Made by a program: the position numbers and the translations under genes. Positions 1,336 to 33,417 of a stretch of DNA of 64,000 bases are shown piece by piece (the stretch's first letter is position 1; every line of letters starts with the position of its first letter). The DNA lies in assembly GCA_958296405.1 (NCBI GenBank), contig OY282519.1, positions 3,332,132-3,396,131 of the forward strand, written 5' to 3'. Under the pieces are notes generated by a model, which saw nothing but the letters and a program-made list of their open reading frames with translations, made no database searches and was not told the DNA's origin. This DNA is from an uncultured Pseudomonadales bacterium (GTDB taxonomy: Bacteria; Pseudomonadota; Gammaproteobacteria; Pseudomonadales; Azotimanducaceae).

Positions 1336-1471
1336 CTCGACGGCGAATGGGGTGTATGGCGACGCGGGCTGCGACAAGAACGTAGACACGATTTCCTGTC
1401 CCCACCGTTCGAGGGCCGCTGTCGCTGCTGGCACCAACTCTTCCACCGCGCGTTGCCAATCATCGAGCGCG

Positions 1472-1711
1472 ATGGCCTCCGTCGGAACCGGCGGCGCCAC
1501 CCGTGTCACATGGGAGGCACTGCGCGTGGATTGCCACGGCCTCCTCTGGCTATTGGATGAGATGCTCTCGTCTCACGCGGCCAAACCGCAGGCGCTTCAT
1601 CGCGGCCTGTCGGCCATCAGCGAACATCCGCGGTGCCGGCTGCCCAAGGCCGAAGTCCGCCAGCGGTTGGCCTCGTTCGGGACCAAACTGAACAACGGGG
1701 CGGGACGCTGA
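1472..1711 (+). CDS. possible small protein between ATPase and helicase (doubtful)
   Basis: The 430-base gap between the ATPase stop and the helicase start holds an open frame whose last 79 codons (ATG at 1472) read like a small helical protein, with an amphipathic stretch around LLWLLDEML and a basic C-terminus. There is no clear ribosome binding site, and the same frame extends upstream to 1253 inside the ATPase gene. An antisense frame covering 1321-1509 also looks protein-like. I recognise neither. This may be a small accessory component of the defence operon or simply noncoding sequence. Confidence 0.3.
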   Translation: MASVGTGGATRVTWEALRVDCHGLLWLLDEMLSSHAAKPQALHRGLSAISEHPRCRLPKAEVRQRLASFGTKLNNGAGR

Positions 1712-1766
1712 TGCCCCCATCCGTCCGCTAAACTGCCTGAAAGACATCGACCGTCGCAGCGACGCC

Positions 1767-5174: not shown

Positions 5175-6988
5175 GCCGCGCTTTCGGCAGCATCCGCCAA
5201 AGCCAAGTGATCACCACCTACGGGCCAGGTGCGCTCATCGACTTGCCGACACATTCCGCCATCGTCGGCGGACTGGACACATGGCCCAAGGACTTGCAGG
5301 AGATCGTAGAGCCGCGGCTCTCGCAGGCCCTGCAGCGCGTCACCGCGGTGCCGGCACCGCGGCTCTACGCGCCACCACCCGCGCCTTCGGAACCGTGGGC
5401 ACCAGCCAAGGGCATCGGCGCGTGGCGGTTCCCCGAGTGGTTCGTGGTACAGGAGGGTGGTTTCTCGGCCAGCAGCGAAAGCGCGGGCCGGCCACAGTCG
5501 CGCCGCTTGGTGCAGCGCAAGGCGCTGGATGAGCGCGGCAGGTTCGAGGGCGTGGACGTGGTACCCACACGCTTCGTGCGCGCCTGCCCGCGTGGACATG
5601 TCGACGACGTGGATTGGCCGGCGTTCGTACATGGGCCGGAGGTGCGTTGCCGCCGGCAACTGTGGCTGGATGAGCGTGGCACCACAGGCGGCCTTGGCGA
5701 ACTTACCGTGCGTTGCGAATGCGGCAAGTCGCGGAACCTCTCGGAAGCATCTGATATTGGCGCGAATCCCTTGGGCCAATGCCGTGGCAGCCGGCCTTGG
5801 CTGGGACGCAACACGAACGAGGAGTGCGATCAGATCAGCCGCCTGCTAATCCGCACAGCCACCAACGCGTACTTTCCACAAGTCGCTAGCGTACTCTCGC
5901 TACCAGACACTGGCTCGGCCGTGCAGGAAGCCGTTGTTGCCGTTTGGGATGTGCTGCAAGCGGTTCAGGACGCCAGTCTGCTCGCCCCATTCAAGTCCGT
6001 GCCGAAAGTTGCCGAAGCGCTCGCTCCCTTTGAGGACGACCAAGTGCTGCGCGCCATCGAGGAGGTGAGAAGCGGCACCGGCCAACTGCGGCCGCTGAAA
6101 GAAGCGGAACTCGAAGCGCTGCTGGGTGCGGACGAGGGCTATGGCGATGAACCGGCAACGGACGCCAACTTCCACGCCCGTCGACTGCCGGAGTCCGCTT
6201 GGCGAAGCGGCACCGACAACGGCGAACGCATCGCTGCGGTCGTCCAACTGCATCGCCTGCGCGAGGTGCTGGCGCTCATCGGCTTCACGCGCTTGGACGC
6301 GGTGACGCCAGACATCCACGGCGATTTCGAGAGCGACGTCATGCGCGCCGAGATCGCCTTGGCCCCGCGCTGGTTTCCGGCTGTCGAGAACCGTGGAGAG
6401 GGCGTGTTCGTGGAACTGCAGGCCGATGCCTTGGCGGCGTGGCTGGAACGTCCCGCTGTGGCAGACCGCGTGGCCAAACTGGCCAAGGGCTACGAAACGT
6501 GGCGGCAAACGCGCACCACGCAGCGTCCCTTTCCGGGCGGCGCGTATGTGCTGCTGCACACGCTCGCCCATCTACTGGTGCAGGCCTTGGCCATGCGCTG
6601 CGGTTATCCGGTCAGCTCCATCCGCGAACGAATCTACGCCGAAGATTTGCCGAGCGGGCGGCGCTACGGCGTCCTGCTGTATACCGGCACGCCAGACGCC
6701 GAGGGCACTTTGGGCGGCTTGGTGCAGCAGGGCCGCCACATCGAAAACCACTTGGCAGATGCGTTGCGTGGCGCGGCGCTGTGCTCCAACGACCCCATCT
6801 GCGCTCAGCACGCGCCCGATGAGAGTGCGGCAACGCTGGAGAGCCGCCCACTGCACGGCGCAGCTTGCCACGGCTGCTCGCTGATCGCCGAGACGTCGTG
6901 TGAAATGCGCAACGACTTTCTAGACCGCGCATTGGTCGTGCCTGTGCTCGGCGTTGAGGACGCCGCGTTCTTCACTCTGCCCGAGTGA
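5171..6988 (+). CDS. DrmB-like DUF1998-domain protein
   Basis: The start at 5171 is chosen because its ATG overlaps the helicase stop (ATGA) and gives the N-terminus MSRAFGSIRQSQ, typical of DrmB-like proteins that begin with a Gly/Ser/Arg-rich segment and a TYGPGALIDLP motif. The protein has 605 residues. A Cys-rich segment near residues 138-190 (CPRGH, then RC and CECG) looks metal-binding. The C-terminal ~130 residues are the DUF1998 module, with a Cys cluster (CSNDPIC near 538, then CHGC and a further Cys near 566-577). In DISARM, DrmB partners DrmA. The same arrangement here implies a helicase-accessory complex. Translational coupling indicates 1:1 co-expression. Confidence 0.85.
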   Translation: MSRAFGSIRQSQVITTYGPGALIDLPTHSAIVGGLDTWPKDLQEIVEPRLSQALQRVTAVPAPRLYAPPPAPSEPWAPAKGIGAWRFPEWFVVQEGGFSASSESAGRPQSRRLVQRKALDERGRFEGVDVVPTRFVRACPRGHVDDVDWPAFVHGPEVRCRRQLWLDERGTTGGLGELTVRCECGKSRNLSEASDIGANPLGQCRGSRPWLGRNTNEECDQISRLLIRTATNAYFPQVASVLSLPDTGSAVQEAVVAVWDVLQAVQDASLLAPFKSVPKVAEALAPFEDDQVLRAIEEVRSGTGQLRPLKEAELEALLGADEGYGDEPATDANFHARRLPESAWRSGTDNGERIAAVVQLHRLREVLALIGFTRLDAVTPDIHGDFESDVMRAEIALAPRWFPAVENRGEGVFVELQADALAAWLERPAVADRVAKLAKGYETWRQTRTTQRPFPGGAYVLLHTLAHLLVQALAMRCGYPVSSIRERIYAEDLPSGRRYGVLLYTGTPDAEGTLGGLVQQGRHIENHLADALRGAALCSNDPICAQHAPDESAATLESRPLHGAACHGCSLIAETSCEMRNDFLDRALVVPVLGVEDAAFFTLPE

Positions 6989-9336: not shown

Positions 9337-12300
9337 TTGAGCTCCGCCAACCCAGCGCGCCCGCTGGCACTCCGGCGGCTCTCGCCCGCTCGCGTGATGC
9401 CGATGTGGGCGCGGCGCCTCGTGACGCGAGACAACAGCGTGGCCTTGCTCGCCGCCTTGCTCGTCGCCAACTGCTTGCGCGTGTATTACAGCGGCTGGGC
9501 GACAGATGCACTGCTTGGCGGTGTGCTCGCGCTGTTGGGATGGGCGCTGCTGCACGACAGGAGGCTGGCAGCAAGCCACCAACCTTTGCCGGCGCCGAGG
9601 GCCCCAAGCCCACCCGCCACGCCCCCGAGCAAGCCCTCGCCGCCACCTCAGGGCGTCAAGCCGACGCCGCGCAGCGTCGGAGCAACGCATCGCCTCTGGG
9701 CATGGCTCTTGGGGGGCTTCGGGCGCACCCAACGCATGGCCGGCGCAGCCGCCCGCCGTTCCCCGCAAGCGACCCGCGGCGCGTGGCGCGTCCGCCTGCC
9801 GGGTCGGCGGCTTCGGCACCGCCGGAAGCCGCGGCCCGACAGCGGGATGCGGCGTCTATGGCTCACGCCGTTCGCCTTCCTTGCGCTCATCGCGGCCTAT
9901 GCGGTGGGCTTGGCGCATGAGTTCACCAAGCAGGGCTTCCGCAATCTAGCCGCCATCGTCGCGGCAGCCGCCGTCTTCCTCTTTTGCTACGCGCGGGGGC
10001 CGCAACTGGCTCGCTCCAAGGCCACCATCCCCGTGGTCATCGCCGCCCTGCTAGCCCTCTTTCCCTCTTATTTGACTGACACGGTCATTCACTCGCACAT
10101 GTTCGCCGCGATGCTCGGCTACTCCCTGTTAACCGTCGGCATCGTGCTGGCGGCGCGAGCGAAAAGCACCCGGGCGCAGCGCGTGTGGGGTCATGCGGCA
10201 CTGCTCTTGGCGCTGCTTTGCGGGTTGATCTATGGCAGCCGCGCCCAAGTGCTCGTCACGATGCTGGGCTACGGCTTCTACTGGGCAAGCCATGTGCTCC
10301 TCAATCGCCGCCTCGGCACCCTCGCCATCGCTGGTGTTGCCGGCGTTGTGGCGGGCGTCGCAGTCTTCTGGTACGCCTCGCCCCGCTTCGACGAATCCCT
10401 GCGTCGCCTAGATCCTTGGAGTTGGGGCTACACCGGCAGCCCCATGCGCTCTGGGCGCGAGACCTTATTTCGCGCCACGTTGGCCGGCATCGCTGAGGCG
10501 CCTTGGTGGGGCCACGGCCCCGGCGTGGACATCACCACCTTGACGGACACTGGCGATGGCATTGACGCCGGCGAAGAAACGGACGCCGGCGATGGCCGGT
10601 CCTCCTCCGCCGGCGCACCTGAAGACGCAGTTTGCATGACCCCCACCCCCTCCAGCTTACTGCGCGATTGCCGCTTGCTGCTCACGGTCCGCAACACCTT
10701 GGCAGGTACCCGCCCCGAGTCGCTTTGGTCTTGGAACTTCAACCTGCCGCTCAGCCGTTGGCAGGGCGTGTCGATCGACGGCCAACCACCGCGCATCGTC
10801 AGCATCATACTGGGCGGCGTCAGACTGACCGGCCAGATTCCGCCAGAACTCGGGGCTTTGGATCAACTCACCGTACTGAGTCTAGACACGAACCGTCTCC
10901 GCGGCCCCATCCCCCCGGAGCTAGGAAACTTGCAGCAATTGAAGAGGTTGCGGCTCGATAGCAATGCGCTCAGTGGCACGGTGCCCGCGACGTTGGGCAA
11001 ATTGTCGCAGCTTGAGGTGCTGAGCTTGGCGGACAATCAGCTGCACGGGCCTGTGCCGGCCGCACTGGCAGGGCTGAGCAAACTCAGACGGCTAAGGCTC
11101 GCCGGCAACGAGTTCTCCGGGCCCGTGCCGGCAGCGCTCCACCGCACCGCCGAACACGACCTCTACAAGGAACTGCTTTGCCAGAACGCCTTGCGCGACT
11201 CGTATCCCGAGCTCTTCGAGGATTGCTCCGCGCTGCTCGCGGGACGCGACGAGCTCGCTGGCACCGGCAGTTTGAACTGGAGTCGAGCGACGCCCATCTA
11301 CGATTGGCAGGGCGTCAAAACACACGGCCCGCCGCCTCGCATCAAAGGTCTGCGCCTAAAGAATGCGAAGCTCAACGGCCGCATTCCGGAAGAGCTCAGC
11401 GCTCTGGATGCGCTGGAAGAGATCCGCTTGGACGGCAACATGCTGGTCGGACAAATTCCTCCAGACATGGGACGCCTCTTGAACCTCGACGAGGTGCAAC
11501 TAGCCGGCAACGACTTCAGCGGAATGCCGCCAAGTCAATTGTTCCAAGTTGAGACCAACGATCTGCGCGGCATGTTGTTTTGCGCCCGCACCGACACGCT
11601 CAACCAAGGTTTGCTGGCCGATTGCGAGACATTGCTTGGCCTGCGCGACACGTTGGCCGGCCAGGCACAGCTCAACTGGCGTCGCGGCGAACCGATCGGC
11701 TGGTGGCAAGGTGTGCGACTCGGCGGCCAGCCCCTGCGCATCATCGGGCTGCATCTGCAAGACAGCGGCCTGAGCGGACAGTTGCCAGCGGCGCTCGGCA
11801 ACCTCGACCGGCTAATCACGCTCTGGCTGGATGGCAATCGGCTGCGGGGTGCGTTGCCTGCCGAACTCGGGCAATTGCAGCGCTTGCGCCAACTGCGGCT
11901 CGACGCAGCGCTTTTGGACCAAGGCGCACCCGCCGCCATGTGTCGGCTAGATGCGCTGACAGCGACGCTCGCCGACGCTTGCGCGCGACCAGCCGAGCCG
12001 AGTCCGGGCCTGCGCACAGACATCGACGCGCTGCTGGCAGCGCAACGGCAACTCGACGCCGGCGACGTTCTCAACTGGCAACCTACGCTATCCATCGAGT
12101 CATGGGATGGCGTGATCTTGGCCGGCGAGCCGCGGCGCGTCGCCGCCCTGCTGCTTGGCCGCCGCGGGCTGGCAGGACAGTTGCCACCCGAACTCGGGCG
12201 GCTCACACAACTCGTTGAACTGCGCCTCGAACGGAACCGATTGCAGGGGGGCATACCAGCCGAACTGGGCCAGCTGGCCACGCTCGAGTCGTTGGATCTC

Positions 12301-15300
12301 AGCAACAACGCGCTGCGTGGCGCTATCCCGCCCGAGTTGGGAAACCTCAAGCAACTCTTGGCCCTGAACTTGGCGGAGAACCGCTTCACAGGCACCGTTC
12401 CCAGCGAACTGGGCGCGCTCGGGCGCCTAGTCTGGCTACGCCTCGCCGGCAACGATTTCGCCGGCGACATGCCGGCGGCGTTGCGCAACGTCGCCGACCA
12501 TGACATCGACGACGACGTTTTCTGCCTGCCGTCGAAGCGGATCAATCCCGCGCAACTGGAAGACTGCAAAGCGCTCTTGGCTGCGCGCGACGAGCTGGCC
12601 GGAAACGGCGATCTGAACTGGCGCGCCACGACGCCGCTTGGCGCGTGGCAGGGCGTCTCCCTTGACGGTGCCCCGACGCGGGTGGTGGCGTTGAACCTTG
12701 CGGGCATGAGGCTCACCGGCCGCATCCCAGCGGCCCTCGGCCGGCTGACCGCGCTGCAATCCCTCGTCCTCGATGGCAATGCCCTCAGCGGCTCCATTCC
12801 CGCGAACTTGAGACGGCTGCCAAGCCGCCAAACATCTGGCGGTCAAGGCAGTTCGGCAACCGGAGGCCTGCCGTCAGCCCGGGTGGCACAATCCCCTCCC
12901 GGCTTTGGCTTGGCGGTGCCCCCGGCCATGCATGGCACGGCTTGGGGCACAACCCCATGCGGCTTCCCAGCAGCGAACCGCGGCCTCATAGGCGATTGCC
13001 GCACACTGCTCGAGGCGCGGGACACTCTGGCTGGGGCCGGACGCCTGAACTGGAGCGCTGCGCTGCCGGCGCAGGCTTGGCAAGGCGTGGAACTCGGCGG
13101 TGTGCCGGAACGGGTGGTGAGCTTGAATCTAGCGGAGGCTGGCCTGCAGGGCCGCATCCCAGCTGCGCTCAGCCGGCTGTCGCAGTTAGCGGCGTTGCGC
13201 CTGAACGACAATGGCTTGCGCGGCGGCATTCCCGCGGAGTTGGGTCAGCTCGCCAATCTGCAGGTGCTCTGGCTCCAGAACAACTCACTTGACGGCCCAT
13301 TGCCGCAGCAGTTGATCGAGTTGCCAACGCTCCGCGTCGCGCGACTCGCCGGCAACGAGTTGAGCGGCCCGCTGCCGCGCACACATCCCGCGCTCGACCA
13401 CGACTTGGACGATTACCTGTTCTGCCTGCCCTTGGCGACGGCCAACGCCGGTTTGCTTGAAGACTGCAATGTGCTTTTGGCCAGCCGCGACGCGCTGTCC
13501 GGCGCTGCGGAGTTGAACTGGCGGCGGGATCTGGCCCTCGGTCGTTGGCAGGGCGTCGAGCTGGGCGGCGACCCTCCCCGCATCATTGGCCTTGACGTGT
13601 CCGCCCTTGGGCTGACCGGGCAGATTCCGCCGGAGTTCGGCCGGCTCGTCGAGTTGCGACGGTTGGCGGTTGGCGGCAATGCACTCACAGGGCCCGTGCC
13701 TAGGGCGCTTGCTCGGTTGCCGAATCTGGAGAAGCTCCACCTGTTCCGCCCGCAGAACACGGCGAGGACTGTCACGATCAGTGTCGAGGCACGAAACACT
13801 GATCCCTCTGCACTTGCCAGCGCACCAAGCGCGACAACCAGCGCTAACCCTCACCTAAGCTGCACATCCTACCAATCAGGCCTCATGGCGGACTGTGAGG
13901 CGTTGTTGGACATGCGCGACACGCTGGCAGGGTCCGCCACATTGAACTGGCACGCAACCGTGCCCATCGAGAAGTGGCCGTGCATTCAGGTGAGCGGCTC
14001 CCCGCCGCGGGTCACTCGGTTAGCTTGCATCAAAGAAGGCCTCAATGGACGCCTGCCATTCGCATTGGGCGACCTTGACGCACTCGAGATTCTCAATCTA
14101 TCGAGCAATGCGCTCAGCGGCACCATCCCACCGTCTCTCGGGCGCCTCAGCAAGCTCAAGCACTTGAATCTGACAGCCAACCAATTGACGGGCGCCATTC
14201 CCACGGAGCTATCGAAGCTCGCGGCGCTCGAGAGCCTCTTGCTGCGCGCAAACCGCCTGACCGGGCACATTCCCCCAACGCTGGCCGACTTGCCAAAGCT
14301 CACGACGCTCAGGCTGAGACACAACGCGCTCAGCGGATGTTCGCCGCCACCGCGTCTGCTCGGTGTGCAGACGCATGATTTGGGTCGCGACGCATTCCAC
14401 TGCTTGCCGCTGGCCGATGGGAAGGCAGGGTTGAAGCGCGACGCCGCGATCTTGCTCGCAGCCCGGGACGAGCTTGCCGGCCAAGGCGAATTGAACTGGA
14501 GTGCTCAGACGTCGGTCGCCGATTGGCAGGGCGTGACACTGGCGGACGTCGAATCCCAAGGCATCATCGGCGTGGACTTGACCGGCGCCGGCCTCACCGG
14601 CCGGATTCCCAGGCAATTGAGCGGCCTTGCCGTCCTGCAGACGTTAAGCTTCGGCGGCAACCAGCTCACTGGGCTCGTCCCCTACGAGCTCGCGCAGCTA
14701 CCCGACCTCCAAGAACTCAACCTGGCAGGCAACTCCTTGACCGGCATCTTGCCCCCCGCGTTGTTGATCGGGCGGCCGGGGCTCGTTGTAACCGGCTTAG
14801 CCTCTAACTCGTTCGCGGGCCCCGCACAACTGGAGCGTCGAGCCTCCACCCAGCTCACGCCTTCGTTGGTGGGCGCGCGGTGTCAGCCTGTGGCGAACAT
14901 CGACATGGAATTGCTTGCGGATTGCGGAACATTGCTTGCACTGCGCGACGCTCTCGCCGGCGCGGGGACGCTGAACTGGAGCGCCGCACTGCCCATCGCC
15001 GCTTGGCAGGGCGTGACCATCGGCGGCGAGCCCGAGCGAGTGCTCGCACTCGACTTGCCAGCCGCCGGGTTGGCCGGCCGGATTCCAGCGGAACTGGGCA
15101 AGTTGACAGGCCTGCGCCGTCTAGTGCTCTCGGAGAACGCACTGACTGGCACCATTCCGCGTGAATTGGGCGAACTTGAGCGTCTGGTCGAACTGCGTTT
15201 GGAAGGCAATGCGCTGACTGGCGCGGTGCCCCCCACGGTCGCCATCGCCGCGGATCCGGACCGGCGCGGCGATTGGTCTGCGACAGCTTCTGCGACACCC

Positions 15301-18300
15301 AGGGTGGCCAACATCGCTAGGGGTCTGGGTGCTGGCGAGCTCACCGATGGCGACCAAGAGAACGCCTTTGCCACACCCCTTCCGGCAGCTTTGCGCCAAA
15401 TCGCCGACCATGACCTGCCGCCGGCGTGCCCCAACGTCCCCCGTACGAACACGGGGTTGTTGCGGGATTGCGAGAGCCTCCTCGCGAGCCGTGACGCGCT
15501 GGCGGGAACAGCCAAGCTGAATTGGGGCGAAGGGCTCCCCATGGCCACTTGGCACGGCGTGACGCTGGGAGGAAGTCCGCTGCGGGTCACGGCCTTAGAG
15601 CTTCCCGACGCCGGATTGGACGGCCGGCTTCCCCCCACGCTCGGCAGCCTTGAAATGCTGGTGACGCTCCGGTTGGACGGGAATCGGTTGGTTGGCCCGA
15701 TCCCGCCGCAACTCGGAGAGCTGCAGCGACTCGAGAACTTGGCGCTGGCGCGGAACCAGCTTACTGGCCACATTCCTGCAGCACTGGGCGCGCTGCCCAG
15801 CTTGGCATCCTTGGCGTTGGGCCAAAACAACTTCCACGCACCAGCGCCGCCGGCGCTGCGGGCGGTGGAATGGCACGACCTGGATGTCGAGGTGTTTTGC
15901 CCGGCATCTGGGGGCGACGCGCCAAGCCTCTTGAGCGACTGCCAGACGTTGCTTTCTGTGCGCGATGAACTGGCGGGGCGGGAAAGCTTGAACTGGCGGC
16001 GCTCCGTGCCGCTGGGCGTTTGGGCTGGCGTGCGTCTCGGCGGCGACCCGTTGAGAGTCGAGGCATTGGAACTCGCCGGCAAAGGGCTCGACGGACGCTT
16101 GCCGGCAGCATTGGGCAACCTCGACGCTTTGCTCAAACTCGATCTCAGCGGCAATGCGCTGCGCGGGGGTTTGCCCGCCGAGCTCGCGAAGCTAGCGCGG
16201 CTCGATGAACTGCGCCTCTCGGACAACCGTTTGAGCGGTGACATTCCCGTCGCGCTGGAGGCGCTTGATTTGCGTGTGCTGCGGATTGCCGGCAACTTGC
16301 TGGCGGCGCCGCCGGATGGCTTGCGCCAGTTGCCAGATACCGACTTCGGGCGCCGCGAGCGCTGCATCGGCGTGCCGCCCGACAATCCCAAACTTGTGGA
16401 AGACTGCTGGCAGCTCTTGTCCCTGCGCGACGAATTGGCACCCGGCGGCGATTTGAGCTGGAGCTCGGAGCAACCCATCGAGCAGTGGCACGGCGTGCGG
16501 CTTGGCGGCACACCGCCGCGGGTCACTGCGCTCCGTTTGGCTAACCTCGGCCTCGGCGGTCGGCTCCCCGCAGGGCTTGGCCATCTCTCCCGCCTAGCGG
16601 CCATCAATCTTTCCAACAATGGGTTGACGGGCCCCATCCCGGCTGAGCTCGGCAAGCTGCGGTGGTTGGAGTTACTGCGCTTGGGAAGGAATCGCCTCGT
16701 TGGCCCCATACCCATCGAACTGGGGCAGCTTCCTAGGCTCAAAGTGATGAACCTCGCCTACAATCGGCTGACCGGGCACGTTCCAGCCGCGCTGGCACAG
16801 CTGCCGGCGCTGGCCGTACTGCGGTTGCAAGGAAACCTCTTCCTCGATTGCTCCGCCCCCGCGGCATTGGCCGCTTCCTTGCCCAACACGGACTTCGCCG
16901 CCACCTTCCTGTGCCATCCGCTTGATTGGTCGCGCAGCTTGGCGCCGGACGCCGCAGCCTTGCTAGCCATGCGCGTCGTCTTGGCGGGCGCCGGCGCCCT
17001 GAACTGGCATGAACGCACGCCCGTGCCGGCCTGGGAGGGCGTGACGCTGTCGTACGGCCAGTCTCCCCGCGTAGAGCGCTTGGAGTTGTCCGGCAAGGCG
17101 TTGACTGGGCGCATCCCAAGAGAAATCGGCAACTTGGACGCTCTGAAGACCTTGCACCTAGACGGCAATGCGTTGACCGGCACCGTGCCACCAGAGCTTG
17201 GCAAGCTCACGCGCCTCCGATCGCTGCGGCTGGACGGCAACCGGTTGCATGGCCCCTTGCCGCAAGCATTGGGGGCGCTCAACGCGCTCACGCTGTTGCG
17301 GCTGGCCGGCAACAGCTTCGAAGGCCTTGCGCCAACCGCGTTGCGCCAAGTACAGGATCATGATTTGGGCTTCGGTCCGCGCTGCCGGCCCGGCATTGCC
17401 GGCACCACAGGGCTGCAACGCGACTGCGGCGTCCTGTTGGCCGTTCGCGACGAGTTGGCGGGCGACGTGAAGTTGAATTGGGGCGCGGCGGCGCCTATCG
17501 ACTTCTGGCGCGGCGTGACGTTGGGCGGCGCGCCGCCGCGCGTGATCGCGCTGGACCTGACCAATCTGGGCCTCACCGGTTCCATTCCACCTCGGCTCGG
17601 AAACCTCGACGCGCTCGTCTCGCTGCGCCTTGGCCGCAATGCGCTCCTCGGGACGATCCCTGACACGCTCGGCAAGCTGGCCAATCTCTCTGAGCTGGTG
17701 CTCGACGGCAACGCCCTCACCGGGCGCATTCCCGGGGAACTGGGCCGCTTGGCAAACCTCGCCACGCTGCGCTTGCGCAACAATCGCCTGCACGGCGCCA
17801 TTCCAGCCGAGTTGGGGCGTTTGGGCAACTTGCGCCAGCTCGCGCTCGACAACAACGCCTTGAGCGGGCACATTCCGCGCAGTCTGGGCGAGTTGAGCGC
17901 CCTGCAGGAACTCTGGCTGGCCGGCAATGAGCTGGCCGACGCCACCTCACACATCCAAGTGACGCCGACGCTGTCTCGGGCATGGCGGGATGCTTCGCCA
18001 GCGCCGCAGGCCGAGGCACTCGCGCCCGCCGCCGGCGCGGGATTGCCGCCTTCGCCCACTCGCCGCATTGCGGCGCCAAGCCAGCCGCCGGCAACGGGAA
18101 CGGAGCTGTTCTGCACCTCAAACGGAGCTGGCAACGCGGAACTCTTCGGCGACTGCACACAGCTACTGGGGATAGGGAGTGACTGGGGCGGTGCCTCCCT
18201 GCTCAACTGGCGTGTCGATGTGCCAATCGGACGCTGGAAAGGCATCGAAGTGAGCGGACACCCAGCAAGGGTCACCGGCATCGATGTGTCGGGGTTGGGG

Positions 18301-19557
18301 CTTCGCGGCCCCCTGTCGCGGCGCCTCACCCGTTTGTCCGCCCTTGAGACGCTGCGGCTGGCCGACAACCAATTTTCTGGCCACATCCCCCCACGGCTCG
18401 GTCGGTTGCGCGCTTTGCGCACAATGGCGCTGGAGCGCAACAACCTGACCGGCCCCGTGCCGACTTCCATTCAGAACTTACTCGCGTTGTCGGAGTTGCG
18501 CTTGAACGACAACGCCATGACCGGCCACTTGGTGGACCGGCTCGAGCGGCTGCCCAGCCTCTCGACAATGCGTCTGGGCGGCAACAACTTCCTCGGCTGC
18601 GTACCAGAACTGGTGCGCGGCCTTGGCGACCGTCGCCTCGAGTTGGACCTTGATTGCGGCCCAACGCCTTGGAGCAAACCGCCGCTGTTTGAAGACGCGG
18701 CAGCGCTCATGGCCAGCCGCGCCGCCCTCGAGGCAGCCGCGCGGCTGAACTGGAACTATGACTTGCCCATCAACGCGTGGCAAGGCGTGATGGTGGATGG
18801 TTCGCCACCCCGGGTGGTCTCCCTCGACCTCGCCAACATGGGCCTGGCCGGCCAGATTCCAAGCGAGCTGCACGCGCTGTCCGCCCTCGTGCGCCTCGAC
18901 TTGAGCGGCAATGCGCTGACTGGCGGCGTCCCTCCCCAACTTGGCCAGCTAAGCAACCTGCGCACACTGTCGCTCAGCGCCAACAGACTCACGGGGGAGT
19001 TGCCCAAGGCGCTCGACCATCTCGACAGGCTGGCCAAGATCGAGTTCGAGGGCAACGACTTCGTTGGCTGCCCGCCCACAACCTTGCGATCGCGCCTGCA
19101 CTCGGCGTTCTTGCCCTTGAGCTTGGCGCATTGCCCAGAGACTTGGCAGTACGACACTGCTGGACAAGTGGGCGGCACGTTGCTTTCCATCAACAATGTG
19201 GTCGATCAAGGCCGTGAGACGCATCTCGCTCAGGGCGCCCACAATCTGTTCCTGCAGATGGGTCTGCAAACCGGGTTGGTGGGCGTTGGCGCACTCGGGC
19301 TCTTGTGCATGTCGTTAGTGTTCAATCTGCGTGGCCGCCTTGGCCGCAAAGTGACGCCCGTGCAGTGCTTGGCCGCCGCCGGCACCGCCATGGCCATCAC
19401 GCACAGCGCCTTCGACGTTTTCCTTCTTCAATACGTGATGACGGTCGCCGTGTTCGTGTGGATGTTCCTAGGCATCGGCACGGGCCTCGCGCGCAGCACC
19501 CAAACGGAGGGCGAGGCGCAGCCGGTGGGCGACGGTCGGCGCATTGCAGGCGACTGA
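9337..19557 (+). CDS. O-antigen ligase/polymerase-type membrane protein with a ~2,830-residue LRR insert
   Basis: This single uninterrupted frame encodes 3,406 residues. The TTG start is supported by GGGAGG seven bases upstream. Residues 35-346 contain about eight or nine membrane segments, with a Pro-rich basic linker at about 82-170. Then comes SGRETLFRATLAGIAEAPW (372-390) and GHGPG (392-396), the signature entering the large periplasmic loop of O-antigen ligases/polymerases (WaaL/Wzy_C). Residues about 433-3265 are 17 plant-type LRR modules. Immediately after them comes AHNLFLQMGLQTGLVG (His 3302), the conserved HN-x-FLQ motif that normally follows that loop, and the last membrane segments. 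The LRR array thus sits inside the loop of an otherwise recognisable ligase. Predicted location is the inner membrane with the array in the periplasm. Expected chemistry is transfer or polymerisation of lipid-linked glycan; the LRR role is unknown. Confidence 0.85.
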   Translation: MSSANPARPLALRRLSPARVMPMWARRLVTRDNSVALLAALLVANCLRVYYSGWATDALLGGVLALLGWALLHDRRLAASHQPLPAPRAPSPPATPPSKPSPPPQGVKPTPRSVGATHRLWAWLLGGFGRTQRMAGAAARRSPQATRGAWRVRLPGRRLRHRRKPRPDSGMRRLWLTPFAFLALIAAYAVGLAHEFTKQGFRNLAAIVAAAAVFLFCYARGPQLARSKATIPVVIAALLALFPSYLTDTVIHSHMFAAMLGYSLLTVGIVLAARAKSTRAQRVWGHAALLLALLCGLIYGSRAQVLVTMLGYGFYWASHVLLNRRLGTLAIAGVAGVVAGVAVFWYASPRFDESLRRLDPWSWGYTGSPMRSGRETLFRATLAGIAEAPWWGHGPGVDITTLTDTGDGIDAGEETDAGDGRSSSAGAPEDAVCMTPTPSSLLRDCRLLLTVRNTLAGTRPESLWSWNFNLPLSRWQGVSIDGQPPRIVSIILGGVRLTGQIPPELGALDQLTVLSLDTNRLRGPIPPELGNLQQLKRLRLDSNALSGTVPATLGKLSQLEVLSLADNQLHGPVPAALAGLSKLRRLRLAGNEFSGPVPAALHRTAEHDLYKELLCQNALRDSYPELFEDCSALLAGRDELAGTGSLNWSRATPIYDWQGVKTHGPPPRIKGLRLKNAKLNGRIPEELSALDALEEIRLDGNMLVGQIPPDMGRLLNLDEVQLAGNDFSGMPPSQLFQVETNDLRGMLFCARTDTLNQGLLADCETLLGLRDTLAGQAQLNWRRGEPIGWWQGVRLGGQPLRIIGLHLQDSGLSGQLPAALGNLDRLITLWLDGNRLRGALPAELGQLQRLRQLRLDAALLDQGAPAAMCRLDALTATLADACARPAEPSPGLRTDIDALLAAQRQLDAGDVLNWQPTLSIESWDGVILAGEPRRVAALLLGRRGLAGQLPPELGRLTQLVELRLERNRLQGGIPAELGQLATLESLDLSNNALRGAIPPELGNLKQLLALNLAENRFTGTVPSELGALGRLVWLRLAGNDFAGDMPAALRNVADHDIDDDVFCLPSKRINPAQLEDCKALLAARDELAGNGDLNWRATTPLGAWQGVSLDGAPTRVVALNLAGMRLTGRIPAALGRLTALQSLVLDGNALSGSIPANLRRLPSRQTSGGQGSSATGGLPSARVAQSPPGFGLAVPPAMHGTAWGTTPCGFPAANRGLIGDCRTLLEARDTLAGAGRLNWSAALPAQAWQGVELGGVPERVVSLNLAEAGLQGRIPAALSRLSQLAALRLNDNGLRGGIPAELGQLANLQVLWLQNNSLDGPLPQQLIELPTLRVARLAGNELSGPLPRTHPALDHDLDDYLFCLPLATANAGLLEDCNVLLASRDALSGAAELNWRRDLALGRWQGVELGGDPPRIIGLDVSALGLTGQIPPEFGRLVELRRLAVGGNALTGPVPRALARLPNLEKLHLFRPQNTARTVTISVEARNTDPSALASAPSATTSANPHLSCTSYQSGLMADCEALLDMRDTLAGSATLNWHATVPIEKWPCIQVSGSPPRVTRLACIKEGLNGRLPFALGDLDALEILNLSSNALSGTIPPSLGRLSKLKHLNLTANQLTGAIPTELSKLAALESLLLRANRLTGHIPPTLADLPKLTTLRLRHNALSGCSPPPRLLGVQTHDLGRDAFHCLPLADGKAGLKRDAAILLAARDELAGQGELNWSAQTSVADWQGVTLADVESQGIIGVDLTGAGLTGRIPRQLSGLAVLQTLSFGGNQLTGLVPYELAQLPDLQELNLAGNSLTGILPPALLIGRPGLVVTGLASNSFAGPAQLERRASTQLTPSLVGARCQPVANIDMELLADCGTLLALRDALAGAGTLNWSAALPIAAWQGVTIGGEPERVLALDLPAAGLAGRIPAELGKLTGLRRLVLSENALTGTIPRELGELERLVELRLEGNALTGAVPPTVAIAADPDRRGDWSATASATPRVANIARGLGAGELTDGDQENAFATPLPAALRQIADHDLPPACPNVPRTNTGLLRDCESLLASRDALAGTAKLNWGEGLPMATWHGVTLGGSPLRVTALELPDAGLDGRLPPTLGSLEMLVTLRLDGNRLVGPIPPQLGELQRLENLALARNQLTGHIPAALGALPSLASLALGQNNFHAPAPPALRAVEWHDLDVEVFCPASGGDAPSLLSDCQTLLSVRDELAGRESLNWRRSVPLGVWAGVRLGGDPLRVEALELAGKGLDGRLPAALGNLDALLKLDLSGNALRGGLPAELAKLARLDELRLSDNRLSGDIPVALEALDLRVLRIAGNLLAAPPDGLRQLPDTDFGRRERCIGVPPDNPKLVEDCWQLLSLRDELAPGGDLSWSSEQPIEQWHGVRLGGTPPRVTALRLANLGLGGRLPAGLGHLSRLAAINLSNNGLTGPIPAELGKLRWLELLRLGRNRLVGPIPIELGQLPRLKVMNLAYNRLTGHVPAALAQLPALAVLRLQGNLFLDCSAPAALAASLPNTDFAATFLCHPLDWSRSLAPDAAALLAMRVVLAGAGALNWHERTPVPAWEGVTLSYGQSPRVERLELSGKALTGRIPREIGNLDALKTLHLDGNALTGTVPPELGKLTRLRSLRLDGNRLHGPLPQALGALNALTLLRLAGNSFEGLAPTALRQVQDHDLGFGPRCRPGIAGTTGLQRDCGVLLAVRDELAGDVKLNWGAAAPIDFWRGVTLGGAPPRVIALDLTNLGLTGSIPPRLGNLDALVSLRLGRNALLGTIPDTLGKLANLSELVLDGNALTGRIPGELGRLANLATLRLRNNRLHGAIPAELGRLGNLRQLALDNNALSGHIPRSLGELSALQELWLAGNELADATSHIQVTPTLSRAWRDASPAPQAEALAPAAGAGLPPSPTRRIAAPSQPPATGTELFCTSNGAGNAELFGDCTQLLGIGSDWGGASLLNWRVDVPIGRWKGIEVSGHPARVTGIDVSGLGLRGPLSRRLTRLSALETLRLADNQFSGHIPPRLGRLRALRTMALERNNLTGPVPTSIQNLLALSELRLNDNAMTGHLVDRLERLPSLSTMRLGGNNFLGCVPELVRGLGDRRLELDLDCGPTPWSKPPLFEDAAALMASRAALEAAARLNWNYDLPINAWQGVMVDGSPPRVVSLDLANMGLAGQIPSELHALSALVRLDLSGNALTGGVPPQLGQLSNLRTLSLSANRLTGELPKALDHLDRLAKIEFEGNDFVGCPPTTLRSRLHSAFLPLSLAHCPETWQYDTAGQVGGTLLSINNVVDQGRETHLAQGAHNLFLQMGLQTGLVGVGALGLLCMSLVFNLRGRLGRKVTPVQCLAAAGTAMAITHSAFDVFLLQYVMTVAVFVWMFLGIGTGLARSTQTEGEAQPVGDGRRIAGD
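10633..19136 (+). repeat. 17-module array of capped plant-type leucine-rich repeats
   Basis: Each module starts with an N-cap of the form C-x(10-16)-DC-x-x-LL-x-x-RD-x-LAG...LNW...W-QGV, like the LRRNT_2 cap of plant receptor kinases. Two to seven repeats of the LxLxxNxLxGxIPxxLGxL type follow, and the module ends in an (E/D)HDL segment leading to the next Cys. The LNW-type cap motif occurs 17 times, near bases 10726, 11268, 11668, 12068, 12610, 13042, 13510, 13940, 14489, 14968, 15514, 15986, 16450, 16999, 17470, 18200 and 18741. Modules run about 400-730 bases. Several carry Ala/Ser/Pro-rich irregular linkers (near 12820-12950, 13745-13860, 15240-15400 and 17940-18110). The second cap Cys is replaced by Ala in modules 9, 14 and 17. 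Confidence 0.9.
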
Positions 19558-19564
19558 CGCCAGA

Positions 19565-21622
19565 TCAATCCGAGCTGGTTGCGAGGGCCGCGTTGCGGTG
19601 GGCAACGTAGGCAACGATGGCATCCGCTTCGGCGGCGGTGACGTCGCTTGCCGGCATGGGCGTGCCGGGCGCGAAGCCGGCCGGGTCGAGAATGAAGCGC
19701 CGCAAGCTGCCCTCATCCCACACAGCGTTACGGCCGGCCAGCGCCGGCGAAGCCATCGGGTCAGCGCCAGCGCGCCGCCCGACGATCCCCACCAAATGCG
19801 GACCTAGGCTGTACCGCTCTTCCTCCAACTGGTGACAACCGCCACAGTGTCGGCCAAACAAGCGACTGCCCTCGCGGGCCTCGGCATCCAACGGCAGCGC
19901 TGTCGTCGCCATCGGCGCGCGGCGCGGCGGCGAGTCTGGTTCGCTAGCTAGGTTGGGCGCGCAGTGAACCGCATGAACATAGTTCGGCGGCTCCACGCCG
20001 CACCACTGGTCCGAGCGACGCACCAGCAGCACTCGCGCAATGTCGAGCAACAAGGCGAGGTGGCCGTCGGGGCCATGGGCCAAGTCCCGTATTTGGTGGC
20101 CGATTTCAATCCGTTCCACATACTTCACTTGTTGTTTCCGGTGCCGCACGCGAAACAGTGAAAAGCCATGGGAACGCCCCCACAGGGACGCGATCAACAG
20201 GTCGTCCCGCCACAACGGAAACGCCGCGGCGTCGTTGGCGACGATGGCCGAGATGCCAACGGAAGGCACCCAAGCAAAGGTTGGTTTGACGAAGCCCTCG
20301 TGCTGCCCCGGGCGGCGCTCTTCCGGCTTCAGCGTCAAGCGAGGATATTGATAGCCGTAGCTCACTTCCGGCCAGCCATAGTTGGCCCCGGGTTCGATCA
20401 AGTTGAGCTCGTCACCGCCTTGGGCGCCATGCTCCGTCAGCCAAACGTCGCCGTGCCCATCCCGGGTGAGCCCCTGCGGATTGCGATGGCCCAGCGTGTG
20501 AATCGCTGCCACGCCGGTCGCGAGGTCCACGCGCAGCACCTTGCCGAGGTGCAGCGCCGAATCCTGCGACGGCGCCGGCGAGCCGGGTTGGCCTGTGTCT
20601 TGGCCGAAATGGCCGACCGTGACGAGCAGGTGACCAGAGCCATCGGCCAGCATGCGGCCACCCGCTTCGTTGCCGGAGAACGGCGGCGCGAGGCAGGGTT
20701 TGGCGTCAAAGATGGTGCGCCATGCCGGCAGGACTTCAATGCCGTCGTCGGAGACGCGCAGGGTCGTGGCGGAGAGCCTGAAGAGCACACAATCACCGTT
20801 GAAGAAGTGATGCGTCACAAATAGATCGTGGTCGCGATTCCCCGTCTCGCCCACGCGCCCCTCCCCCACGAGGATGTCCATCACGCGAAAAGTGACCGCC
20901 CCGATGGCCGGATGACTGCTCATGGGCACGCCTGCTGCGAGATAGCTCAACTGCCCGTCGGTACCGACCGTGGCAAACCGGCCGCGTGGCGTCGCCACCA
21001 GCAACTGCTCACCAACCCGTTCAATGGCACCGCCAGTGTCGGCAAACGGCTCCAAGGCGACGGTCTTCACGTCCAACGCATAGAGATGGGTGCCTAGACC
21101 GACGGTCTCTCCGGGCCGAAATACAATGTTGTCACTGCGGATGGGGTTGCCCGTCTTCTCCAGTGCGATGTCCCCGCCCCACAGCTTGCCATCGGCACCA
21201 TATTGGCCGGTTGAGATGCGATCGATCGGATAGTCGGGCAGCTGCTTCTTCGCCCGGCACACCCCAGCCGAGATGCCGCCAACATCGTCAAAGTGAAAGT
21301 CGAGGTTGGCGAAGCCAAACGTCTTCCTCGTGACGGGGAGATCGCCCACGTCCAACGGGATGATGTGCAGAAAGAAAGGGGCCACCGTATCCGACGGGTT
21401 GCACTGTTCCCGCACATAGGTGAGCTCGCCATCGTCCAAGAACACATTGAAGTGCGCTTCGATGTCTGCGCGCCGCAAGCCCGCAAGCTCGCCCGCCCTT
21501 TGCATGGCGGCGCGGGGCGACTCCAAGCCCATGCTCCAGATCGCCGCGGCCGCGGCGGCCGCGCCGAGGGCGAAGAGGCCGAGCACCCAGAGCGCCCGCA
21601 ACGCGGGCAACATCGCCTTCAT
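19565..21622 (-). CDS. membrane-anchored PQQ-type sugar dehydrogenase fused to cytochrome c
   Basis: The product has 685 residues, starting at the ATG at 21622 just before a signal-anchor (LRALWVLGLFALGAAAAAAA). An earlier in-frame ATG at 21793 would add 57 unlikely residues. Order: membrane anchor; a ~95-residue domain (about 55-150, LTYVREQC...FFLHIIP...FGFANLDF); a beta-propeller of the glucose/sorbosone dehydrogenase type (GHRNPQGLTRDGHGDVWLTEHG near 390-420); then a class I cytochrome c (CGGCH near residue 592, with a distal Met in GTPMPA). It would oxidise a sugar or alcohol in the periplasm and pass electrons to its own heme. It converges on the giant ligase gene with a gap of seven bases. 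The small N-terminal domain recurs as a gene remnant at 26769-27077. Confidence 0.8.
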   Translation of the reverse strand: MKAMLPALRALWVLGLFALGAAAAAAAIWSMGLESPRAAMQRAGELAGLRRADIEAHFNVFLDDGELTYVREQCNPSDTVAPFFLHIIPLDVGDLPVTRKTFGFANLDFHFDDVGGISAGVCRAKKQLPDYPIDRISTGQYGADGKLWGGDIALEKTGNPIRSDNIVFRPGETVGLGTHLYALDVKTVALEPFADTGGAIERVGEQLLVATPRGRFATVGTDGQLSYLAAGVPMSSHPAIGAVTFRVMDILVGEGRVGETGNRDHDLFVTHHFFNGDCVLFRLSATTLRVSDDGIEVLPAWRTIFDAKPCLAPPFSGNEAGGRMLADGSGHLLVTVGHFGQDTGQPGSPAPSQDSALHLGKVLRVDLATGVAAIHTLGHRNPQGLTRDGHGDVWLTEHGAQGGDELNLIEPGANYGWPEVSYGYQYPRLTLKPEERRPGQHEGFVKPTFAWVPSVGISAIVANDAAAFPLWRDDLLIASLWGRSHGFSLFRVRHRKQQVKYVERIEIGHQIRDLAHGPDGHLALLLDIARVLLVRRSDQWCGVEPPNYVHAVHCAPNLASEPDSPPRRAPMATTALPLDAEAREGSRLFGRHCGGCHQLEEERYSLGPHLVGIVGRRAGADPMASPALAGRNAVWDEGSLRRFILDPAGFAPGTPMPASDVTAAEADAIVAYVAHRNAALATSSD

Positions 21623-22045
21623 CGTTTCTCGCTTCCTCCGCCGTGCAAGGGCACAGTCCTCCAAGCCCCGCGAACCCATCGCTCGTGCTTGGTTCGTCCC
21701 GGAGGACCCGGCCTCAAGGCCCCCTTGCAGAATCACCCCTAGGCCGTCGCGAGATGTGATGGAAAGTCGGTTGACGATGTTCGCCGCCATCACCTAGTGG
21801 AGGCAAACTGCCACGCGCTCATCGAACGTTGCAGGGTAACATGCGCACCGACCGGCCTGACGCCCCGGTCGCGGATGAATCTGGCCCTCGCAAACCGGCG
21901 GCGCCGGGAAGACGCTGTCCGGCTGGCTAGACTCGCCACGGGCGCTGCCGGTTCAGGCTTAAGGCGCTGCTCTGTTAAACTGGCGTTCGAGCTTCATCCA
22001 GTGCAACGGTGCGCCCTTGCCCACATGGTTTCTCAGCGTGCCGGC
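21623..22045. other. divergent intergenic region
   Basis: These 423 bases separate the dehydrogenase (minus strand) from the GT-C protein (plus strand). An open frame runs through it from 21797 into the GT-C gene, but its translation lacks protein-like character before about 22025. Promoters for both genes are expected here; I could not pick out convincing elements. Confidence 0.4.
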
Positions 22046-23689
22046 ATGAGTCCACTCGCGGTTGCGCCGGCGCCGGCCATGCGCTTTGCTTCAAGCCACT
22101 ATCGCTTGGCCTGCGTTGGCCTGCTGATACTCGCAGCGGCGCTGCGCTTCTACGATCTCCCAGCACAGATCCTCTCGCACGACGAAGCGGTCACCGCAGA
22201 GATCTCCAAAGGTACAGTGCTGGAGGTCATCCGCGACACGCGGCGCAAGAGCTCATCACCCATCCTGCATCCGCTGCTGCTGTACATCGTGCAAACAGTG
22301 GACAGCTCACCACTCGCGCTGCGCCTGCCGCCCGCCATCGCCAGCGTGCTCACCATCGCCGCTCTGCTGTTCTGGCTGCCACGCGTCGGCATTGCGCCAG
22401 CGGTGGCCTTGCTGGCGGGACTCATGGCGACGCTCTGCGAGCCGTTCATCCGACACGCGCAAAACGCACGGGAGTATTCCCTCGACACGCTGGTTGCGAC
22501 GCTGTTGCTGATCGGCTTGCTGAGATGCTTGCGTGATGGCCGGCAGGCGCTGCTCTGCGTCGCACTGGCCGTTGCCCCATTGGTGCAGTATGGCCTAGCC
22601 CTGTTTGGCGTCGCGGTGCTCGCCACGCTGGCGTTGAGTTCCCACGCCGGCGGCGATGTCGGCCATGCACCGATGCGCGAACGTCTTGGCCGCGCTGCCA
22701 CCCCAGCGGGTTGGTTCGCGCTGGGTGCGGCCGTGAGCTACGCCGTCACGCTGAGCGGTCAGGGCTTGATGGCCGCAGCCCAAGGCGCTTTCGGCCCGAT
22801 TCCGCAACGCCACCTCTATGGCGGCGGCACCGAGTTCCCGGCCATGATCGGCTTTGCCGTGGAACACAGCGCTCACTTCGTTGGGCATTACGCACCGCCG
22901 GTGGTGGCAGGAGTTGGCTTTGTCTCGCTCGCCGGGCTGTTGGTGCGCCGCATCGCCCAGCGACGCCCCCTTGCGCCCGTGCCCATGCTTTGCCTGTTCG
23001 CCGGCGCCGTGGCCGTGGCGGCCGCGCTGCTGCGGCTCTACCCGCTAGGGGGCCTGCGTCAGTGCATGTACCTCGCACCAGCGTTGTTCGTCGGGATTGC
23101 CTACGCCATTCATGCGGTGATGAGCCGCCTGCCCACGCGGCCACGCCATGCCCTGACGGCGATGGTCGTGACGGTTGCCGCCATTGAGGGAGCGAGTGCG
23201 GTGGGGCAAAGCTTCCCAAGTCAGTTCCGCGGCAAATCGGAGACCATCATGGCCGCGCTCGATGAGCATCTTGGGGACGATCCCGTGTATCTGCCCAGCA
23301 TTTCGGTTCCCATCATGGACTACTACTATCCCGGGCAAGCGGAGCGGTTCTATCAAGGCAGTAGTTGCAGCTGGCGCGAAGACCAGCAATGCGAACAGGA
23401 CTTCATCACGGAGTTGCGCAACATGCATTTGGACGGCGCGCGGCGCGTTTGGGTGGTCTTCTTCAACTATCGCACTTGGAATGTGGTGGAGAGGTGGCGG
23501 GATGCGGGGCTCGCTCAGCACACGGTGAAGAGCACGTTCTTCAATCTCTTCCTCATCCCAAACATCCATCCCATTGTGGCTCACCACCACACCGAGCCAA
23601 CTCATTCTCCCGCAGAGCCGATGCCACCGAGCCGCCAAGCAACGCGATGCTCGCCCGCAGGGCCGCCGCGGAGCGATCGCGGCGGCTGA
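22046..23689 (+). CDS. GT-C fold glycosyltransferase, PMT/GT39-like membrane protein
   Basis: The protein has about 547 residues and 10-12 predicted membrane segments. After the first segment (CVGLLILAAALRFYDLP) comes LSHDEAVTAEIS. The Asp-Glu pair in the first periplasmic loop is the catalytic signature of lipid-phosphosugar-dependent GT-C enzymes such as ArnT and GT39 mannosyltransferases. NAREYSLDTLVATLLLIGL resembles the loop after TM4 in this group. The C-terminal periplasmic portion (about 400-530) contains Tyr-rich and Trp-rich segments. The start is uncertain (ATGs at 22025, 22046 and 22079); 22046 is chosen as the nearest sensible start before the first membrane segment. It probably adds a sugar to a lipid-linked glycan or exported acceptor, using undecaprenyl-phosphate-sugar made by the GT2 at 28.5-29.6 kb. 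Confidence 0.75.
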   Translation: MSPLAVAPAPAMRFASSHYRLACVGLLILAAALRFYDLPAQILSHDEAVTAEISKGTVLEVIRDTRRKSSSPILHPLLLYIVQTVDSSPLALRLPPAIASVLTIAALLFWLPRVGIAPAVALLAGLMATLCEPFIRHAQNAREYSLDTLVATLLLIGLLRCLRDGRQALLCVALAVAPLVQYGLALFGVAVLATLALSSHAGGDVGHAPMRERLGRAATPAGWFALGAAVSYAVTLSGQGLMAAAQGAFGPIPQRHLYGGGTEFPAMIGFAVEHSAHFVGHYAPPVVAGVGFVSLAGLLVRRIAQRRPLAPVPMLCLFAGAVAVAAALLRLYPLGGLRQCMYLAPALFVGIAYAIHAVMSRLPTRPRHALTAMVVTVAAIEGASAVGQSFPSQFRGKSETIMAALDEHLGDDPVYLPSISVPIMDYYYPGQAERFYQGSSCSWREDQQCEQDFITELRNMHLDGARRVWVVFFNYRTWNVVERWRDAGLAQHTVKSTFFNLFLIPNIHPIVAHHHTEPTHSPAEPMPPSRQATRCSPAGPPRSDRGG

Positions 23690-33151: not shown

Positions 33152-33417
33152 GTCGTGAGCTTCGCGCAAGCGACAGCCTTGCCGACCAAGCCACAGCACA
33201 GCAATTCGAGCCAATCCTTCGTGTCGATTTGGCAGTTGGCGTCTAGCGCCTCCGCCGGGCCGATGCAACCGCGGCGCAACCAGTGTGGCATGTACCAAGC
33301 GGGTGGGTAGGCCGCCGACCGTTCGTTCCTCAACTGCACGACGCTGATGCTTCGCGGACGGTCATGAGCAGGTAGGCTGTAATGGGCTTGGCCGCCCCTA
33401 GTTCGTTCAATTGACAC
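33148..33417 (-). CDS. small protein coupled to the R-M methyltransferase
   Basis: This 89-residue frame (GTG start) ends in an ATGA overlap with the methyltransferase start, strong evidence that it is a real co-translated gene. It is rich in Cys, Trp and Arg, with a segment AWYMPHWLRRGCIGPAEAL and an ending LLCCGLVGKAVACAKL. There is no helix-turn-helix that I recognise, so it is not an obvious controller (C) protein. It might be an accessory specificity or regulatory subunit. Function unknown. Confidence 0.55.
   Translation of the reverse strand: MSIERTRGGQAHYSLPAHDRPRSISVVQLRNERSAAYPPAWYMPHWLRRGCIGPAEALDANCQIDTKDWLELLCCGLVGKAVACAKLTT

Follow-up and report, generated by a model that had tools for sequence, protein, structure and literature searches.

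A Wzy_C-type membrane protein whose ligase loop carries an array of plant-type leucine-rich repeats

Inner-membrane enzymes of the WaaL, Wzy and PglL kinds share the Wzy_C domain, and in the available part of PMC10920833 their superfamily is named O-Lig GT121, within clan GT-C1. Three residues of E. coli WaaL, R215, R288 and H338, are described as important and as shared with PglL in the available part of PMC3643930, and the roles of the Arg and His residues in Wzy_C enzymes are covered in the accessible portions of both papers. PglL enzymes are further characterised, in a source available in part, by specific motifs beside Wzy_C, termed PglL_A and PglL_B, one of which is PF15864.

The gene described here lies in a window of 64,000 nucleotides (the whole stretch of DNA that was analysed). 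Its product resembles WaaL and other Wzy_C proteins in its 12-helix pattern, its long periplasmic loop, two arginines and a histidine in order, an HN motif and a collinear profile (features as given in the available part of PMC10920833). Unlike these proteins, it carries an array of leucine-rich repeats (LRRs) within the loop. The distance from the GxG motif to the HN motif is 2,911 residues in the window protein and 1,328-2,926 residues across the four proteins of this arrangement, here called type A. In the ordinary ligases of the genus, the same distance is 20 residues in 7 of 14 and 30 residues in two of 14 when counted by script; the remaining five give 43-92 by script, which caught an earlier GxG, and 20-28 by eye. 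No description of an LRR-bearing Wzy_C protein, O-antigen ligase or polymerase, or of a giant periplasmic glycosyltransferase of this kind, was found in the open-access papers searched, as judged by titles and the opening lines of abstracts. Related bacteria suggest that LRRs entered a glycan-ligase loop twice, and this points to a way of steering glycan attachment that is real and, it appears, undescribed.

Table 1. Features of the LRR-ligase gene and its downstream neighbours in window coordinates.
Feature	Position	Strand	Basis
Whole gene, type A LRR-inserted Wzy_C protein, 3406 aa	9337..19557	+	Open frame; sister ortholog L070:155-10459
N-terminal ligase half with about nine membrane helices and the opening part of Wzy_C (aa 21-398)	9397..10530	+	PF04932 profile 1-104; hydropathy
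Pro/Arg-rich linker, aa 74-173 (23 K+R, 2 D+E), probably cytoplasmic	9556..9855	+	Window and sister species; absent from L071 and L072
R302, counterpart of E. coli WaaL R215	10240..10242	+	Alignment to ordinary ligases; kept in 4/4 type A; importance per available part of PMC3643930
R374, counterpart of E. coli WaaL R288	10456..10458	+	Alignment; 4/4 type A; available part of PMC3643930
GHG (392-394), the GxG motif; array inserted after it	10510..10518	+	Motif alignment
Array of 17 LRR modules spanning about aa 430-3240; a module comprises an LNW...WQGV-type cap (Cys before most) and several LRRs	10624..19056	+	Cap and LRR patterns; plant LRR receptor kinases best in PDB
Linker rich in Ala, Ser, Pro and Thr, following module 15 (the third-last)	17929..18138	+	Present at the equivalent position of L070 and L071
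C-terminal ligase half, aa 3293-3388, last three membrane helices	19213..19500	+	PF04932 profile 117-146; dN/dS 0.036 against sister species
H3302, counterpart of the WaaL/PglL His (E. coli H338)	19240..19242	+	Alignment; 4/4 type A; available part of PMC3643930
Glucose/sorbosone dehydrogenase-cytochrome c protein, convergent, outside the enzyme	19565..21793	-	Syntenic in sister species
Membrane protein, PMT_2 match 21.5 bits (below cut-off)	21797..23689	+	Similar gene, by eye, in the same place beside L070

The frame runs through 3406 codons without interruption, as the earlier note had claimed in describing one uninterrupted 10.2-kb frame. Its putative start is TTG, and the first ATG is codon 21 (position 9397). 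DNA tandem repeats were sought in the gene and none was found, and the direct repeats of at least 40 nt listed for it are no more than 78% identical to the reference copy; collapse or mis-joining is therefore not suggested. A full-length open counterpart is present in a diverged sister species (G008, dS 0.33), so this is neither a chance frame nor an assembly fusion.

In a Pfam scan of the whole protein, Wzy_C (PF04932) scored 27.0 bits over residues 287-394 (profile positions 1-104 of 149), against a cut-off of 31.7. In a six-frame genome scan the window gene scored 34.2 bits, above this cut-off, and its ortholog L070 scored 37.2 bits. The PF04932 scores of the two relatives from another genus of the family, L071 and L072, are 26.6 and 18.3 bits. 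All of the single-half scores fall below the cut-off. The N half of the window protein aligned to profile 1-104 with 24.5 bits and the C half to 117-146 with 18.8 bits. Among the relatives, the N halves matched 1-104 (L070, 28.0 bits) and 2-106 (L071, 27.5 bits), that of L072 giving no match, and the C halves matched 108-146 (L070, 20.5 bits), 122-147 (L071, 13.5 bits, less than the 20.3 bits that this half scores with the unrelated family TauE) and 102-148 (L072, 24.4 bits). Since the two halves end and resume at profile positions 104 and 117, and this pattern is repeated in the relatives, the insert can be placed at about positions 105-116, between the GxG and HN motifs.

Comparison with ordinary ligases gave the same order. 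When hhalign compared the halves with the 14 ordinary PF04932 proteins of the genus, template columns 374-511 matched the N half (probability 80.5, E 1.3e-5) and columns 539-575 the C half (probability 72.1, E 3.4e-5). A phylum-wide search with the C half (398 genomes) recovered, besides its own, one ordinary ligase of 447 residues (L095 in G675, 35.6 bits). In this protein, here L095ord, the N-half profile lies at residues 74-308, weakly (9.8 bits, bias 18.2), and the C-half profile at 316-406 (32.3 bits). The strongest N-half match among 19 ordinary proteins was L023 (27.2 bits, residues 239-361), in which the C-half match occupies the expected place with a negligible score (386-415, 2.1 bits). 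A PDB sequence search with the ligase halves returned no WaaL at E values up to 10. By sequence, both halves match one ligase in order, whether the comparison is with PF04932, by hhalign or with the ordinary 447-residue protein. The motifs pointed out in the earlier note, SGRETLF (containing R374), GHGPG (392-396) and AHNLFLQMG (containing H3302), stand where it had placed them, and R302, R374 and H3302 align with conserved positions of ordinary ligases. Its further claim, that LRRs had been inserted into the ligase loop with the enzyme frame kept, is borne out by the collinear Wzy_C halves. The window protein is confirmed as a Wzy_C-type membrane protein split by about 2,900 residues; its assignment is made at the level of the Wzy_C superfamily, where ligase, polymerase and protein oligosaccharyltransferase appear indistinguishable in these comparisons.

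Nine hydrophobic segments lie at one end of the protein and three at the other, some of them assigned by hand, and one marginal segment (1.52) falls within the array. The predicted cytoplasmic loops contain more K+R per length than the short outer loops, and this excess places the array in the periplasm. A cytoplasmic location for the LRRs, considered in the earlier note, was rejected on the hydropathy and the positive-inside charge pattern.

Matches to LRR families extend through the middle of the protein, with E values down to 6.5e-108 (PF00560), and the LRRs make up about 2,800 of the 3,406 residues. Strict LRR units number 49 or 53, depending on which of two patterns is used, the spacing between units is 24 residues in 31 of 48 steps, and the array is nearly charge-neutral (net -12). 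The number of caps also depends on the pattern, a stricter one giving 16 in the sister species and a looser one 17. The repeats are of the plant type, with a 24-residue LxxLxLxxNxLxGxIP unit and an N-terminal cap at the start, as in the ectodomains of the plant LRR receptor kinases FLS2, GSO1 and MIK2; these kinases were the top relatives of the module profile in the PDB, among the best 60 of 202 matches. Unlike the plant receptors, in which one solenoid is joined to a single-pass kinase, the window protein has 17 short capped modules placed serially in a multi-pass enzyme. The measure that located the Ala/Ser/Pro/Thr-rich linker in the window protein, L070 and L071 found none inside the array of L072. 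Between the window protein and its sister-species ortholog, LRR scaffold positions differ at 0-10% and other positions at 16-37%. Positive selection on concave LRR sites was considered and rejected, the rates being 0.18-0.35 at unit positions 9, 10, 12, 14 and 15 against 0.16-0.37 at the other non-scaffold positions.

Similar modules occur in congeneric proteins that look secreted. L058 and L059 (in G004) and L025 (in G000, the genome of the window) are frames that combine, by eye, an HExxH protease-like segment with LRRs. L058 and L059 have the same kind of module as the window protein, and L058 also has the same cap (DCRALRAVRDILVGSG..MNW....WTGV); unlike the window protein, they carry protease-like and other domains and no ligase. 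Such proteins are perhaps a source or a partner of the LRR modules. No LRR-ligase was found in G004, a single-contig genome.

An N-half search of 97 genomes, including the window's own, gave a strong match only in the congeneric G008 (80% identity, frame of 3443 aa), with weak matches at about 1e-3 in G073 and G035. The G008 ortholog (OY282379.1) has 3434 residues and 17 caps. It is 80% identical to the window protein overall and 97.8% identical over residues 3300-3388, and the modules of the two proteins pair one to one (17/17). The dN/dS ratio between them is 0.364 for the whole gene, 0.214 for the N-terminal ligase half, 0.363 for the LRRs and 0.036 for the C-terminal half. Residues 3241-3292, just before the His motif, display no constraint (dN/dS 1.18 over 52 codons), and the Pro/Arg-rich linker is loosely constrained (0.68). 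Selection therefore acts on both ligase halves and on the array. Presence throughout the genus was rejected, as two of nine genus genomes carry the gene.

Two further type A proteins were found with the C-half profile in G469 (OY282455.1), which belongs to another genus of the family: L071, with 1749 residues and seven caps, and L072, with 2257 residues and ten caps. Across 206 family genomes this profile gave strong matches only in G000, G008 and G469, together with five weak matches (E 8e-4 to 9e-3) in frames of 417-691 residues. In class-wide searches of 369 genomes at E 1e-5, the N half returned one weak match besides its own and the C half none. A single-sequence scan of genome contigs with the full-length window protein gave no match, and neither did a scan of viral sequences. 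All four type A proteins have the two Arg motifs and then the GxG ahead of the LRRs, with the His after them. Single clades unite the last modules of the four (support 100/98) and their third-last modules (99/95); the second-last modules also form one when L072 is left aside (98/88). Grouping of the first modules is looser (84/87) and is absent from a wider module tree. From the common insertion site and these last modules, the insertion appears to be older than the divergence of the genera, with later gain or loss of inner modules.

A second arrangement emerged from a search with the LRR modules, in which 17 of the 206 family genomes matched at E 1e-22. Frames were read in nine of these (G000, G008, G469, G468, G606, G044, G594, G001 and G004), and six carry LRR-ligases; the other matching genomes are G462, G463, G466, G467, G471, G481, G484 and G485. 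As fragmented genomes may have lost such genes and the frames read come from nine of the 17 matching genomes, the rarity of LRR-ligases should not be over-read. The type A C-half profile did not recover the genomes with the second arrangement, here called type B. Twelve intact type B frames occur in G606, G044 and G468, with 792-2233 residues, 1-10 caps, helices at both ends and a terminal HN motif. The order in all twelve is first Arg, LRRs, second Arg, GxG and His, and the GxG-containing motif is 27-28 residues from the His. In six short type B proteins Wzy_C is unbroken from profile position 81/82 to 148/149 and follows the LRRs, two of the six scoring above the PF04932 cut-off (38.0 and 36.2 bits) and four below it (24.6-30.8 bits). 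Together with type A, there are 16 intact LRR-ligases (window included) in six genomes of three genera, with two insertion points in the same loop, and the catalytic positions (two Arg motifs and the His) are kept in all 16. A plasmid search with a type B protein gave seven records, with no place covering 80% of it and the best places starting inside the LRR part.

Glycan genes surround nine of the 12 type B genes, those at L132, L133 and L135 lying outside sugar gene clusters, and one type A gene, L071, whose start overlaps the last 11 nt of a Polysacc_synt flippase frame that is itself preceded by a GT4 gene. Within the clusters, type B and GT4 genes occur in alternation. In five places (one in L131, two each in L134 and L138) the GT4 start codon comes 3 nt after the LRR-ligase stop, and the stop of a sixth LRR-ligase is followed by the start of what appears by eye to be a truncated GT4. 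Pfam confirmed GT4 for seven neighbouring genes, these five included, and identified GHMP kinases, a SIS isomerase and a GFO/IDH oxidoreductase among the others; a flippase-looking frame (L138:324-1721) had no Pfam match at 0.01. Long and short versions of the LRR-ligase are present in each of the clusters L131, L134 and L138. A short frame within one cluster (L131:10674-11324) resembles, by eye, the type B N terminus only and is probably a remnant. A further type B gene in G044 is in two parts about 26 kb apart (L137:2412-5918 and L136:2384-5389), and a phage-type integrase (PF00589) adjoins its N-terminal part; this is an apparent interruption by a mobile element.

A tree of the ligase cores was built from 31 of 33 cut sequences (L004 and L086 were dropped; L077, which has one internal stop, L090, L091 and the split G044 gene were left out). 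The type A cores fall with those of the ordinary ligases L095ord (98.7/99) and L023ord (94.4/97), and the type B cores make up a separate clade (100/100). The fork joining type B to its neighbours is weak (3.1/25), so any sister group read from it is tentative. Core identity between the types is 14-16% in the two pairs measured; in the core the window protein is 19-21% identical to two ordinary ligases, and one type B protein 13-24% to three. Because the tree puts the two types in different ligase lineages, insertion into this loop probably took place twice, and this is the simplest reading. In the module tree, a short alignment with many weak forks that excludes L070, L132, L135, L136 and L137, several clusters made up only of type B modules lie among type A modules, again with weak forks. 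This interspersion suggests that the two types may share a module pool, or that arrays may have been copied between them.

On balance, the window protein is somewhat more likely than not to be an active periplasmic glycan ligase or polymerase in which the LRR arm captures or positions an acceptor or a partner. It would be an inner-membrane glycan transferase of the WaaL/Wzy/PglL type whose periplasmic loop, the one predicted to hold the acceptor-activating His and the phosphate-binding arginines, has been lengthened by a 17-module array. By analogy with its family, the donor would be a glycan linked to undecaprenyl diphosphate, picked up on the periplasmic side of the inner membrane and transferred with H3302 as the base. 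Judging from the anatomy of the protein, the array would form a closed loop in the periplasm with both ends near the active site. Acceptor capture is what we infer from this position; candidates for the molecule held are a secreted protein, lipid A-core and a growing glycan, or the array could bind a partner such as another LRR protein, and the number of modules (1-17) would set reach or specificity. With both of its ends anchored to the inner membrane through the active-site loop, the array is unlikely to be displayed at the cell surface, and the earlier suggestion that the LRRs bind surfaces of hosts or phages is disfavoured. A bolder version, offered tentatively, is that acceptor recognition by the array decides which glycan goes to which molecule, such arrays having been built twice and multiplied in sugar operons beside dedicated GT4 genes. 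To our knowledge, acceptor choice by WaaL, Wzy and PglL enzymes is poorly understood. If acceptor capture is correct, the acceptor-side loop holds a large, separable, recognition-type domain kept by selection, through which acceptor choice would become directly testable. It would also be a receptor-style use of LRRs in the bacterial periplasm for which no prior description was found, and it suggests that uncultured Pseudomonadales possess elaborate systems of surface glycans.

The protein could instead be a PglL-like protein O-oligosaccharyltransferase, its array recruiting the cell's own secreted LRR proteins, or the enzyme glycosylating its own Ala/Ser/Pro/Thr-rich linkers. Like PglL and TfpM, it has Wzy_C and the three shared residues (available part of PMC3643930). 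Modules of this kind do occur in apparently secreted LRR proteins of genus mates (the G004 frames, with a protease-like HELGH segment), and the array contains low-complexity A/S/P/T linkers, one of them common to the window protein, L070 and L071. The C half also gives a weak match to TfpM, an O-linking oligosaccharyltransferase (12.1 bits, E 0.07). This score, however, is far under the TfpM cut-off of 600, no PglL family is among the 12 Pfam families matched by the whole protein at E up to 10 or appears for the N half at E up to 1, and the array of L072 has no such linker. An enzyme of this kind is considered unlikely.

Variation in module number, from 1 to 17 within one core design and with the long and short versions side by side in L131, L134 and L138, would also be expected if the array were a chain-length ruler or polymerase scaffold that holds the growing glycan, with module number setting its length and either replacing a Wzz-type regulator or working alongside one. 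The ordinary ligase L095ord adjoins a frame that looks Wzz-like by eye. Against this, the window protein and its sister have kept exactly 17 modules one to one, which fits recognition equally well, and a ruler is judged decidedly unlikely. That the LRRs dominate the protein might suggest a periplasmic LRR receptor or adhesin for which the ligase part is a mere membrane anchor, with catalysis lost. The C half containing H3302 is, however, the most constrained part of the protein, the catalytic positions are intact in all 16 LRR-ligases with unbroken frames, and relatives have GT4 and flippase neighbours, so that this explanation is scarcely probable; a pseudogene, like a mere anchor, was rejected on the dN/dS values and the kept catalytic motifs. 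An assembly or frame fusion of separate genes, a concern of the earlier note, is very unlikely to the point of being negligible: the six genomes with LRR-ligases are each recorded as one contig, the type A C half had no strong match in any fragmented genome of the family and the eight fragmented genomes with LRR-module matches lie outside the frames read, but the sister ortholog, the two homologs in a second genus (L071 and L072), the recurrence of intact long frames at two insertion points in six genomes of three genera and a window gene free of tandem repeats all speak against it.

The window gene is flanked by an MFS gene and by the convergent dehydrogenase-cytochrome c gene and does not lie in a glycan operon; no GT4 or flippase gene is adjacent to it. 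Further on are the PMT_2-like gene, a histidine kinase, an FAD oxidoreductase and a GT2 gene. Several other frames of G000 and G008 contain a domain of about 100 residues that lies within residues ~89-214 of the dehydrogenase-cytochrome c protein, and a membrane protein encoded next to L072 carries it at its C terminus (42% identity over 102 residues). Elsewhere in the same genome, L024 (G000:C1:2858000-2877000) contains repeat frames of 1706 and 3499 residues, the larger with LRR-like segments near its C end; we take its long repeats to resemble Calx-beta repeats. Positions 25-6988 (+) of the window contain likely DISARM-type defence genes, with PADLOC matches to PDC-M28C-like (475.5 bits), DrmA (922.6 bits) and DrmB (276 bits). 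At 31606-33298 (-) an EcoO109I-type restriction endonuclease (PF14511) lies beside an N6_N4 DNA methylase, of which PADLOC reported the methylase only.
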